Source of the DNA: Halegenticoccus soli
GTDB lineage: Archaea > Halobacteriota > Halobacteria > Halobacteriales > Haloferacaceae
NCBI RefSeq assembly: GCF_002844195.1
Contig: NZ_PEND01000001.1
Coordinates: 248,001 to 312,000 of the forward strand
Reading direction: 5' to 3'
DNA length: 64,000 nucleotides
This document shows positions 52,676-57,495 of the stretch, piece after piece (within the stretch, counting starts at the first letter, position 1; every line of letters starts with the position of its first letter). Under the pieces are notes generated by a model that saw only the letters and a list, made by a program, of their open reading frames with translations, searched no databases and was not told the DNA's origin. The translations under genes and the position numbers were made by a program.

Positions 52676-53419
52676 CTACCACTCCATGCCGCCGTTGACG
52701 CCGAGCACCTGTCCGGTCATGTAACAGGAGTCGCGGCTGGCGAGGAAGCGGACGATGCCGCAGATGTCCTCCACCTCGGCGAACCGCTTCAGGGGGATGC
52801 GCTGGAGGATCTTCTCCTGGACGCGCTCGGAAACCTCGTCCAGCATGTCCGTCTTGACGAACCCGGGCGCGACGCAGTTCGCCGTCGTGTCGTACCGGGC
52901 GAGTTCGAGGGCGATGGTCCGCGTGAAGCCGAAGAGCCCGCTCTTCGTCGTGGCGTAGTTCGCCTGGCCGTAGTTGCCCTGCTGGCCGACGACGCTCGAG
53001 ATGTTGATCAGCCGGCCGTGGTCCGCCTCCTTGAGGTCGGGGAAGAAGGTGCTCGTGCAGTTGAACACCCCGCCCAGGTTCACGTCCATCACGAGGTCCC
53101 AGTCCTCGCGGGTCATCTCCTCGAACTTCTTGTCGACGGTAATCCCGGCGTTGTTCACCAGGACGTTCGCCGTCCCGAAGGTGTCGGTGACCGTCTCGCG
53201 CATCGCCTCGACCTCCGCTTCGTCGGTCACGTCGGCCTGGACCGCGATGGCGGTTCCGCCCTCCGAATCGATCCGGTCGACGACGTCGTACGCGTCCCGC
53301 TCCGACGAGCGGTAGTTCACGACGACGTTCGCGCCGTGACGACCGAGTTCCTCCGCGATTCCCCGTCCGATTCCCCTCGACGACCCCGTTACGATGCAGG
53401 TGCGGTCTTGTAGCGTCAT
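52676..53419 (-). CDS. phaB: Acetoacetyl-CoA reductase (SDR)
   Basis: Reduces acetoacetyl-CoA to (R)-3-hydroxybutyryl-CoA with NADPH for polyhydroxyalkanoate synthesis. The 247-residue short-chain dehydrogenase has TGSSRGIGRGIAEELG (TGxxxGxG), VLVNNAGITVDKKFEE (NNAG), SSVVGQQGNYGQANYATTKS (catalytic Ser, Tyr, Lys) and APGFVKTDML. It ends with the typical YMTGQVLGVNGGMEW. It lies 190 bases downstream of phaC with an AT-rich gap (53500-53575), so it may have its own promoter. Other SDR activities are possible, but context favours PhaB. Confidence 0.9.
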   Translation of the reverse strand: MTLQDRTCIVTGSSRGIGRGIAEELGRHGANVVVNYRSSERDAYDVVDRIDSEGGTAIAVQADVTDEAEVEAMRETVTDTFGTANVLVNNAGITVDKKFEEMTREDWDLVMDVNLGGVFNCTSTFFPDLKEADHGRLINISSVVGQQGNYGQANYATTKSGLFGFTRTIALELARYDTTANCVAPGFVKTDMLDEVSERVQEKILQRIPLKRFAEVEDICGIVRFLASRDSCYMTGQVLGVNGGMEW

Positions 53420-53608: not shown

Positions 53609-55168
53609 TCACCGATCTCCGACGCGCTCGCGCGCCTGCTCGACCCAGGCGTCCACGCGGCTCTCCGAGACGCCGATCCGCTGTGCGAGCGACGCGGCGT
53701 CCGCCTCGGCGAGGGCGGCGACGCCGTCGACTCCCTCCTCGCGGAGCCGATCGGCGTAGGCCGGTCCGATGCCTTCTATCGTCCGAAGGCTCCCCGACTC
53801 GGCCGTCTCGGCCTCGATCTCGGTACCCTCCGTGATCTCCTGGTCCTCCGAGATGTCCGTCTCGGTCTGGTCCATCGTCGCCACGTCCGCCGCCGCCGCC
53901 TCGTCGTCTGCCAGCCCGACCTGCTCAGCCGTCGGTTCCTCCGGCGTCGCCTGCTCGGCGTCGTCCGCCGTCGAGGCCGCTTCGCCCGCTGTCTTTCCTT
54001 CGCCGCGGGTCGTCTCCCGCTCGACGGTCACTCCGTCCGGCATCCCCGTCCCGGCCTCGATCTCGGCCGCGGCCTCTCGGCCCTCGGGGACCGATCGCTC
54101 CGCGTACCACTCGGCGACGTTCGGCCAGAGCTCGGCGTGGGACTTGCCAGAGACGGACAGGCCGATGTGCCCCGTCGGGAACTCCATGACGGTCGTGTCG
54201 TCGCTGCCGACGACCTCGTTGAACGGCTTGCTCGCGTCCGGCGGGATGAGGTGGTCGTACTCGCCGACGATCTGGAGGACCGGCATGTCGATCTCCTCCA
54301 GGTCGACGCGCTTGCCGTCCAGCGACAGTTCGCCGTTCATCAGCTTGTTCTCCTGGTAGATGTCGCGCAGGAACTGCTCGTAGGTCTTCCCGGCGACGTC
54401 GATCCCCTCGGAGAGCCACCGCTCCATCCGGGCGAAGTTCTCCACGAACTCGTCGTCCTCCAGGTTGTCGTACAGCCGGAGGTACTTGGTGACGTAGTTC
54501 GACACGGGATCCATCAGCGCGAAGCCGACGTCGAGGAACCCCGCCGGGACGTTGCCGAACGCCCGCCGGACCTGCTCGGGCGAGTAGTAGTCCTCCTCGC
54601 CCCAGAGTTCGAGGATGCCGCCGGTCCCGGCGAAGCACAGCCCGGCCGCCATGAGCCCGAGGTTGCGGACCTTCTCCGGGTGGAGGGCGGCGTACATCGC
54701 GCTCATCGTCCCGCCCATGCAGTACCCGAGGAGGTTGATCGAATCCTGCCCCGACCGCTCGCGGACCACGTCGACGCAGTTGTCGACGTACCGGTTGACG
54801 TAGTCGTCGAGCGTGAGGTGGACGTCGAGCTTCGAGGGCTCGCCCCAGTCGATCAGGTACACGTCGAACCCGCTTTCGAGCAACCGACGGACCACGCTCC
54901 GGTCCGGCTGGAGGTCGAGGATGTACGGCCGGTTGATCAGCGCGTAGACGATGAGGATCGGCACGTCGCGCTGCTCGTCCGTCAGCGGCTCGTAGTGGAG
55001 CAGTTCGAGCTTGTTCTCCTCGTAGACGACCTCGCTCGGCGTCTGTCCGACCTCGATCTCGGCCATCCGGTCGGCCTGCTCCTCGAAGGCTTCCGCCTTC
55101 TCCGCGAACTCGGTCACGGCGTCCCACCCCTCCCGCTGGAAGTGTAAAGCCGCCGCGAGGGGGTTCAT
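53609..55168 (-). CDS. phaC: Class III PHA synthase subunit PhaC with C-terminal HhH domain
   Basis: Polymerises (R)-3-hydroxyacyl-CoA into polyhydroxyalkanoate together with PhaE. The 519-residue protein has the alpha/beta-hydrolase core with lipase box GYCMGG (nucleophile Cys150), Asp305 (VGEYDHLIP) and His334 (TGHIG), the usual triad positions of class III enzymes. After about residue 360, where the core ends, is an acidic, Glu/Ala/Thr-rich linker of about 100 residues. It is followed by a helix-hairpin-helix domain (461-519: [20 protein letters not shown] onward). This extra domain is unusual for a PHA synthase. The start overlaps the phaE stop by four bases, as expected for the PhaEC complex. 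Confidence 0.93.
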
Positions 55169-55716
55169 TCTTCCACCGCCTCGAGGATCCTGTCGAGCTT
55201 CGTTTCGACGGCGTGCTGGCGCCGTTCGAGCTCGACGAGCCGTTTGCCCACCTCCTCGATGTCGCCGTCGGTCGCGAACCCGTAGGCGCGGAGGGTCGAC
55301 TCCGCCAGCTGATCGAACCCCTCCTTCGCGCCGAGCGCGTTGTCGACCGTCTGCCCGGTGGCGAGGGCGAACGCGGTCGTCCCCATCACCTCCTTGAACG
55401 CCTCGTTCGCGGCGTTCAACCAGATGTCGCGGAAGTCCTCGAGCGGGACGTCCTCGCCCTCCATCGCGTCGTGAACCCGCTCTATCTGCTCTTCCGCGGC
55501 GCGCATCCACACCTGGTACGCGCGGGCGTACCCCCTCGCGCCGTCCTTCCAGGTCTCGTCCATCGCCGTCTCGTCGATCGATCTCATCCAGGCGTCGAGG
55601 AACTGGCTCTGCATCTCCACGTTCCGCTCGACGGCGTCGAGGAACGAATCTCCCATCTGATTCATCTGCTCGGACCACGCTCCGGGATCCGATCGCTGTG
55701 AATTACTGTCTACCAT
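55165..55716 (-). CDS. phaE: PHA synthase subunit PhaE
   Basis: PhaE is the partner of class III PhaC and is needed for its activity at the granule surface. The 183-residue protein is short, as in archaea, and nearly all-helical. It has [20 protein letters not shown], a Trp/Arg-rich [39 protein letters not shown] and a C-terminal coiled-coil-like [20 protein letters not shown]. Its stop overlaps the phaC start by four bases. It follows phaP by 52 bases on the same strand. Confidence 0.9.
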
Positions 55717-55768: not shown

Positions 55769-56344
55769 CTACTCGGACGACGAGCTAGACGACGAGCGCG
55801 ACGAGCGGGACGACCGCGACGCGGACTCGGAGGCGGACTGGGCCGTCTCCTCGGCGGCCTGCGCCATCTGCTGGGCGCTCTCTTCGACGTGCCGCTCGAC
55901 GTCGTTCAGCGAGTCCTCGTAGGCGTTCATCGAGTCGTCGACAATCGAGACCGTCTGGTCGATGACCTGGTTGTACGCGTCCGAGTTGTCGTCGATGTTC
56001 TGCCGGACCGTCTGCCAGGTCTGCTCGTTGATCTGGTTGACCGCGTCGAACTGATCGTCGACGGCCTGCTCGAGGCTGTCGAACGCGTCCTCGCTCTCGT
56101 CGCTGGGGACGCTCGCCTTGAACACGTCGAGGTACGCCTTCCAGATGTTGCGCGTCGCGTCGACGCCCGACTGCTGGACCGACCGCCCGGACTCCATCGT
56201 GTCCTGGAGGGCCTTCGGGAACTGCTTCTGGGCGTTCATACTCTGGTGGAGCCACTGCTGGCCCTGCTTCATCGACTGACGCTGCATCTCGAACATCGCG
56301 TTTATCGGGTTAGACTGCTGGTTCTGGTTGGAACTTTCACTCAT
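55769..56344 (-). CDS. phaP: PHA granule-associated phasin PhaP
   Basis: Phasins coat PHA granules and control their size. The 191-residue protein is rich in Gln, Asn and Ser and nearly all-helical. An N-terminal Gln-rich segment (MFEMQRQSMKQGQQWLHQSM) is followed by amphipathic helices (NIWKAYLDVFKASVPSD, FDAVNQINEQTWQTVRQNID). The C-terminal tail is made of Ser and Arg (about 170-191, RSSRSSRSSSSSSSE). It begins inside the phaR stop (ATGA), so regulator and phasin are co-translated, as in the Haloferax mediterranei phaRP operon. The Ser/Arg tail is an odd extension. Confidence 0.87.
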   Translation of the reverse strand: MSESSNQNQQSNPINAMFEMQRQSMKQGQQWLHQSMNAQKQFPKALQDTMESGRSVQQSGVDATRNIWKAYLDVFKASVPSDESEDAFDSLEQAVDDQFDAVNQINEQTWQTVRQNIDDNSDAYNQVIDQTVSIVDDSMNAYEDSLNDVERHVEESAQQMAQAAEETAQSASESASRSSRSSRSSSSSSSE

Positions 56345-56658
56345 TGTTGATCACCGGAGGCTCGCTTTATCGGGATGACGAACGTCTGGACGATGTCGCC
56401 CTCGTCGAGGTCCAACGCCTCCCGCTCGGCGTCGGGGATACTTATCCGACCGCCGCTCCGGATGCGCGTTTTGAACATCGCCACCCCCGTCCCCATCGAC
56501 ATGAGGTCGGGATAGCTGCTCATCCCCGATCCGGCGTTCATCGACAGCATCTGGTTCAGCAACCGCATCTGCTGGTCTGTGAACTCCTCGCCCGCCTTCT
56601 GCATCTGCTTGGCGAAGAACGCCGGCGACCACGGCATCTCGTCCAGTCCGTCCGTCAT
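56341..56658 (-). CDS. phaR: AbrB-type regulator PhaR
   Basis: A 105-residue protein. The N-terminal half is helical and Gln/Met-rich (SPAFFAKQMQKAGEEFTDQQ, then LLNQMLSMNAG), probably granule-binding. The C-terminal half is an AbrB/SpoVT swapped-hairpin DNA-binding domain (MFKTRIRSGGRISIPDAERE onward, DLDEGDIVQTFVI). In Haloferax mediterranei the AbrB-type PhaR represses phaRP and is titrated by PHA granules. The same logic is likely here from gene order phaR-phaP-phaE-phaC (inference). The ATG at 56658 follows a TATA-like AAAATACTTA by about 30 bases. Confidence 0.86.
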   Translation of the reverse strand: MTDGLDEMPWSPAFFAKQMQKAGEEFTDQQMRLLNQMLSMNAGSGMSSYPDLMSMGTGVAMFKTRIRSGGRISIPDAEREALDLDEGDIVQTFVIPIKRASGDQQ

Positions 56659-56685
56659 CTCACTTCCAACTGGGGGCCCCGCACG

Positions 56686-56726
56686 TAAGTATTTTCCGCT
56701 CAGAACCACTTAGTGCCAATAGGTGG
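56686..56726 (-). promoter_or_regulatory. phaR promoter and candidate operator
   Basis: On the minus strand CGGAAAATACTTA (about 56686-56698) looks like BRE plus TATA for phaR. Directly upstream, ACCAC at 56704-56708 and GTGGT at 56722-56726 form an inverted repeat, with a CACTTAGTG palindrome inside it (56706-56714). A regulator bound there would sit next to the TATA box. PhaR itself is the obvious candidate. Confidence 0.45.
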
Positions 56727-56838: not shown

Positions 56839-57495
56839 ATGAATAGTCAAGAGACGAAACGGGAGGCCGCTACGCTCGGGTACGGATTCACCGACGCGTG
56901 GATTCGGGCGACCGGACACATGATAAACAGCGCGGTCGAGGCCCAGCGGGCGGCCCTGGCCGCCTACGGAATCAAGGGCGGCTCGGACGATCGCTCGAAC
57001 GGCGGCATCGATTCGGTAGCGTATTCGAAAGACGAGTGGTCGTTCGAACGGACCGTCGATTCTCCGGGCGAGATCGGCGTCGGCGACGCCGTCACGTTCT
57101 CCAAGACGCTCTCTCACGACGACGTCGAGGCGTTCGCCGACGCGAGCGGCGACACGAATCGCCTCCACCTCGACGGCGGATTCGCCGAGGAGACGCGGTT
57201 CGATCGGCCGATCGTCCACGGAACGCTCGTCGCCGGGCTGATCAGCGCGGCGCTGGCGCGGCTTCCCGGTCTCACGATATACCTCTCGCAGGACGTGGAG
57301 TTCCTCCGACCCGCCTTCCCCGAGCAGCGCTTGACGGCGACCGTCGAGGTGATCGAGGACATGGGTAACAAACGGTACCTCCTCTCGACGGACGTGACAG
57401 ACGAGGAAGGGCGCCCCGTCATCGAGGGCGAGGCGATCGTCCTCATCGACCCCCTCCCCGGGGCAGCCGAGAAGGCCGACGACCCGGCGCGGTAG
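56839..57495 (+). CDS. phaJ: MaoC family (R)-enoyl-CoA hydratase, PhaJ-like
   Basis: Likely hydrates trans-2-enoyl-CoA to (R)-3-hydroxyacyl-CoA, feeding beta-oxidation products to PHA synthase. The 218-residue protein has a hot-dog fold with the hydratase-2 motif FADASGDTNRLHLDGGFAEE (Asp105, His110), followed by RPIVHGTLVAGLISAALARL. A roughly 70-residue N-terminal extension (AWIRATGHMINSAVEAQRAA) is helical and resembles a phasin segment, which might bind it to granules. It is divergent from phaR. A 25-bp direct repeat covers its last codons. Confidence 0.85.
   Translation: MNSQETKREAATLGYGFTDAWIRATGHMINSAVEAQRAALAAYGIKGGSDDRSNGGIDSVAYSKDEWSFERTVDSPGEIGVGDAVTFSKTLSHDDVEAFADASGDTNRLHLDGGFAEETRFDRPIVHGTLVAGLISAALARLPGLTIYLSQDVEFLRPAFPEQRLTATVEVIEDMGNKRYLLSTDVTDEEGRPVIEGEAIVLIDPLPGAAEKADDPAR

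Follow-up and report, generated by a model that had tools for sequence, protein, structure and literature searches.

An acidic helix-hairpin-helix tail fixed on haloarchaeal PHA synthases and recurring on phasins is a candidate granule-docking module

In the haloarchaeon Halegenticoccus soli, the PHA synthase PhaC ends in a helix-hairpin-helix (HhH) domain that is joined to the enzyme by a long acidic linker. What might this domain contact, and why is it carried by a synthase? The window analyzed here is the whole stretch of 64,000 nucleotides (contig NZ_PEND01000001.1, positions 248,001 to 312,000), in which the relevant features are the following:

52676..53419, minus strand: SDR reductase (PhaB/FabG type), downstream of phaC (PF13561, E 1.1e-62)
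53612-55168 (stop to 53609), minus strand: PhaC, 519 aa
53612..53788, minus strand: PhaC C-terminal HhH, residues 461-519 (Pfam HHH_5, AlphaFold2, conservation)
53789..54088, minus strand: PhaC acidic low-confidence linker, approximately residues 361-460 (pLDDT, composition, length variability)
54089..55168, minus strand: PhaC class III PHA synthase core, residues 1-360 (TIGR01836; invariant triad C150/D305/H334)
55165..55716, minus strand: PhaE, short haloarchaeal type (PF09712, E 3.4e-07)
55769..56344, minus strand: PhaP, a haloarchaeal phasin without HhH (phasin profile)
56341..56709, minus strand: PhaR-like AbrB-fold regulator, start codon position provisional (TIGR01439 AbrB domain, E 3.1e-04, below cut-off; gene order)
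56839..57495, plus strand: MaoC/PhaJ-type enoyl-CoA hydratase adjoining the pha cluster (PF01575, E 1.3e-18)

The phaC gene is the last of phaR-phaP-phaE-phaC, its start overlaps the phaE stop by four bases, and a MaoC gene adjoins. This is the usual haloarchaeal cluster, for which the order maoC-phaR-phaP-phaE-phaC is conserved (PMC7137286). A preliminary description of this DNA, made from the sequence alone, had proposed a normal class III synthase core, and this proves correct. The core scores 417.3 bits against TIGR01836 (curated cut-off 365.3), the GxCxGG box is present as GYCMGG with phaE adjacent, and C150, D305, and H334 are invariant among the 42 sequences compared.

The same description had placed an HhH at residues 461-519, beyond an acidic tether of roughly 100 residues, and had suggested structure prediction and a search of other haloarchaeal synthases as checks. 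HHH_5 (PF14520) matches residues 461-519 with 45.1 bits against a cut-off of 27 (E 1.4e-11), and each of the 72 rows in the tail alignment also matches this family. In an AlphaFold2 model of full-length PhaC, pLDDT is 89-97 at 461-519 and the core is mostly confident, with values of 36-57 across about 371-459. Modeled alone, the tail likewise folds confidently as an HhH (pLDDT 89.6, five helices). The tether also agrees with its composition, given that residues 350-460 contain 32 Asp/Glu versus 5 Lys/Arg, and with its low pLDDT. Only the interval first assigned to the HhH, 53609-53900, has to be narrowed: the domain occupies 53612-53788, and 53789-53900 is linker.

We searched 194 Halobacteria genomes, obtained a PhaC match in 103, and extracted 111 PhaC-family proteins, of which 107 carry a C-terminal HhH. 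The four tailless members, one of which is L020 of this genome, are PhaC2-like paralogues that have diverged (40-52% identity). In a second search, among named genomes, the tail is present on 80 of 80 PhaC orthologues (a set that overlaps in part with the 107), and the nearest PhaC is that of Halegenticoccus tardaugens (73%). Beyond the haloarchaea, the HhH is absent from both non-halobacterial archaeal PhaCs of the phylum that we read (L260 and L261); the remaining PhaCs from other archaea of the phylum are mostly short frames of 305-403 codons, with one exception, and plasmid-borne bacterial class III PhaCs align to the core alone. Across the haloarchaea sampled, the tail is thus a constant element of PhaC, and the suggested search leaves an HhH-tailed PhaC that is real, conserved, and ordinary for haloarchaea.

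Three further observations concern synthases related to this set. L260 and L261 carry short Lys/Arg-rich C-terminal tails where haloarchaea have the HhH. A tailless PhaC2-like paralogue of this genome (L131:8237-9544) has GYSTGA in place of GxCxGG, which replaces the catalytic Cys by Ser. Finally, a PhaC of Halorubrum lacusprofundi was reported on the basis of C-terminal identity to Haloferax mediterranei PhaC (PMC7137286), and this assignment may be mistaken because the C-terminal region includes the HhH tail common to other proteins.

Within the tail, the hairpin GxG glycines G466 and G468 are kept in all 107 orthologues, as are L475, L486, and W508, whereas the linker drifts freely: it is approximately 100 aa long in this PhaC and 4 to 186 aa in relatives, with approximately 40% Asp/Glu. 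Conservation of these five residues excludes a chance HhH match. In the last helix, R504 and Q511 are near-invariant beside the invariant W508.

The idea that this domain ties granules to the nucleoid, which the preliminary description put forward, is not new, since it has been stated for H. mediterranei. A 2025 report describes the C-terminus of H. mediterranei PhaC as a disordered region plus an HhH in an AlphaFold model, and suggests nucleoid attachment by analogy with Caulobacter PhaH (PMC12028471). That protein is the orthologue of the window PhaC and has the same architecture, but its tail and linker sequences differ. The HhH of the Caulobacter crescentus phasin PhaH is reported to bind DNA non-specifically, and its loss to disorganize the granules (PMC13052382); these findings are those of Salinas et al. 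2023, as described in PMC12028471 and PMC13052382. From such descriptions PhaH resembles PhaC as a granule protein that ends in an HhH. However, PhaH is a phasin for which DNA binding and a granule phenotype are reported, whereas the HhH of the window sits on a synthase and thus lacks the PhaH-type combination of phasin domain and HhH. A granule-nucleoid tie has also been proposed for PhaM of Cupriavidus and PhaF of Pseudomonas. Unlike PhaC, these are separate proteins that have histone-like tails and no HhH; the PhaC tail is acidic and shows nothing of their Lys-rich character.

What appears to be new is that the HhH type of PhaC also occurs on second phasins. When all fetched loci were searched with a profile of the PhaC tails, 15 such phasins from 14 genomes proved to carry the tail, none of them adjoining phaC. 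The representative in this genome (L130:7218-8075; contig C1, approximately 205,217-206,074) lies approximately 42 kb before the window, and similar proteins are present in 13 other haloarchaeal genomes. It joins a haloarchaeal phasin domain to a C-terminal HhH and therefore has the architecture of PhaH. The window PhaP and the second phasin share 51% identity over 163 aa. For the phasin half of this gene the nearest sequence is the window PhaP (74% DNA identity over 494 bases), and for its tail it is the window PhaC tail (78.6% DNA identity over 154 bases, 73% protein identity), with which it groups in the tail tree (support 100/96). The gene is thus chimeric, combining a duplicated PhaP with the PhaC tail of its own genome. 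The fusion may be recent, since Halegenticoccus tardaugens has strong tail matches in two frames only, of 258 and 679 codons, which are known by tail match alone and the longer of which we take to be PhaC. Gene conversion is another process that could have made the phasin and PhaC tails more alike.

In the phasin-domain tree the tailed phasins occupy four positions, of which starred branches (SH-aLRT only) require at least three. The tail tree by itself does not formally reject one origin for the phasin tails (p-AU 0.064); it comprises only 55 columns, leaves many forks open, and does not settle where the PhaC tails stand with respect to the small HhH protein described below. The best reading is that phasins probably gained their tails independently at least twice. 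Because the HhH is fixed on the synthase and is also found on coat proteins, a module acting at the level of the granule is the best reading of its distribution, which speaks for a portable module that docks granules over a part of the catalytic machinery. In a partial literature search we found no paper on HhH phasins in haloarchaea, nor a universality count, phasin fusions, or a residue comparison of the kind reported here.

What such a module binds may be judged in part from its relatives. The closest HhHs outside PHA proteins are those of a small haloarchaeal protein, then TopA. The small protein (L132:4887-5621) starts with M(A/G)LLDKLKSLLG and continues with an acidic linker and an HhH, which is the layout of the PhaC tail; relatives occur in many genomes, including some without phaC. 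The L132:4887-5621 gene, with the start MALLDKLKSLLG, lies between an aroE-like gene and a trpE/pabB-looking gene (both by eye). Structural matches to the predicted tail fold include haloarchaeal L32e, RadA/Rad51, NusA AR2 and AR1, Hel308, and Pol theta, with Z of about 10 for RadA and NusA AR2. The N-terminal HhH of RadA/Rad51 is the closest whole-domain fold and also gives significant profile matches, but it sits in a recombinase, and its hairpin reads GVGPATA compared to GIGPTYA in PhaC. NusA AR1 and AR2, which are likewise acidic, match in whole-domain fold and profile. HhH-like units were also observed, about three each, at the extreme C-termini of two repeat-rich, adhesin-like frames of 15,179 codons (L351; G014:C3 near 107,089) and 9,006 codons (L352; G036:C7 near 63,189).

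Comparison with these relatives reveals a loss of basic residues. Lys or Arg occupies the GxGxK position in 1 of 107 PhaC tails versus 19 of 21 haloarchaeal TopA proteins. Position 465 is basic in 9 of 107 PhaC tails and position 511 in 4 of 107, whereas the small HhH protein retains a basic residue at these sites in 29 of 31 and 25 of 31 sequences, respectively. PhaC tails average 3.1 Lys/Arg in about 54 residues compared to 5.9 per tail in the small protein (p 2e-12, a value that overstates independence because the compared sequences are kin). Overall net charge was dropped as a test of DNA binding in favor of this site-by-site comparison, since the TopA HhHs (-8.5) are as acidic as the PhaC tails (-8.9 on average). 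The GxGxK lysine is common but not universal among DNA-binding HhHs, and it is likewise missing from both RadA copies of this genome. Given the acidic TopA HhHs and these RadA copies, contact with DNA through the hairpin backbone is possible for the PhaC HhH, also at molar KCl, and these comparisons leave DNA a plausible ligand.

We tentatively favor, at somewhat less than an even chance, the reading that the PhaC tail is an HhH docking module on a flexible acidic tether, most likely to nucleoid DNA. PhaC presumably sits at the granule surface on the growing polymer, from which the HhH would project outward on its long tether and hold the nascent granule to some large structure of the cell. 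That structure would most likely be nucleoid DNA, contacted without sequence preference via the backbone of the GIG hairpin. Granules would then form on the chromosome and be inherited with it, as with bacterial PhaM, PhaF, and PhaH, and the copying of the module onto extra phasins in some haloarchaea would add contact points.

The docking model draws on the HhH fold, its presence on all orthologues of both searches (107/107 and 80/80) and absence from the four diverged paralogues, and its low-confidence, variable tether, together with the 15 phasins from 14 genomes, their four tree placements, and the 73% identity and 100/96 grouping of this genome's phasin tail with its PhaC tail. A docking role in general is supported by the recurrence of this HhH type on phasins and by the bacterial precedent of PhaH (PMC13052382). 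Weighing against a DNA tether are the acidity of the tails and the missing GxGxK lysine and basic residues at 465 and 511; in addition, our literature search found no haloarchaeal granule-localization data.

A second possibility, doubtful but substantial in our estimation, is that the tail is a NusA-like HhH for protein docking. Its partner would be a protein of the granule or the cytosol, or a further HhH, and PhaC and phasins would thereby be assembled into one surface complex with no involvement of DNA. Over the whole domain, NusA AR2 (6ib8, 1wcn) and AR1 (1u9l) rank with the nearest solved structures, and, unlike the PhaC tail, these domains are known to bind proteins (SuhB, phage N) in transcription complexes, with structure entries that include SuhB-AR2 and NusA-protein N complexes. 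Basic residues have been lost in comparison with the closest HhH relative, which is consistent with this reading, the last-helix residues W508, R504, and Q511 could make an interface, and the giant repeat proteins that end in the same HhH type do not look like DNA enzymes. However, no partner is known, RadA-type HhHs match the structure equally well, and W508 may be merely structural, since it is also invariant in TopA and the small HhH protein.

Less probable still, and in our view unlikely, is that the tail serves the synthase itself at high salt, through folding, PhaE pairing, or nucleation, with localization as a secondary effect. The C-terminal extension of haloarchaeal PhaC, including that of H. 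mediterranei, is reported in reviews and a primary paper to be indispensable for in vivo activity at high salinity, and its removal in published work led to activity loss, not misplacement (PMC6631277, PMC2939530), which weighs against a role in positioning alone. In addition, the tailless PhaC2 is inactive (PMC2939530), and within the haloarchaeal PhaC family the tail is missing only from diverged paralogues. However, grafting the C-terminus of PhaC3 onto PhaC2 left the enzyme inactive (PMC2939530), which means that a tail alone does not suffice for activity, and the published truncations may have cut linker and HhH together. A catalytic role also fits poorly with a linker that ranges from 4 to 186 aa, with the same domain type on non-catalytic phasins, and with tailless plasmid-borne bacterial class III and sampled non-halobacterial archaeal PhaCs. 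Positioning and synthesis roles can coexist, since PhaM of Cupriavidus combines synthase activation with DNA binding (PMC13052382, PMC9049629). Very improbable is a role as an unspecific acidic extension, common in haloarchaea, that keeps a granule protein soluble and has no particular ligand, because solubility would not require an invariant fold with five residues fixed in 107 sequences, even though the linker is rich in Asp/Glu and other haloarchaeal proteins seen here end in an acidic linker plus HhH.

Returning to docking, we cautiously propose, as a statement that falls short of probable, a docking module that belongs to the haloarchaeal carbonosome. This acidic HhH, a constant of the synthase that was repeatedly passed to phasins, would contact either DNA through its hairpin backbone alone or a shared protein, in molar salt. 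The extension of the haloarchaeal PHA synthase has been known as indispensable, yet unexplained, for over a decade, and an invariant HhH, with the same domain type on phasins, narrows a loosely described “longer C-terminus” to a single part that can be tested. Should the domain not bind DNA, the published reading would be corrected, and binding to a shared protein partner would go against expectation for an HhH. If instead granules dock to the chromosome, Archaea and Bacteria would have arrived at granule inheritance by an HhH through different proteins.
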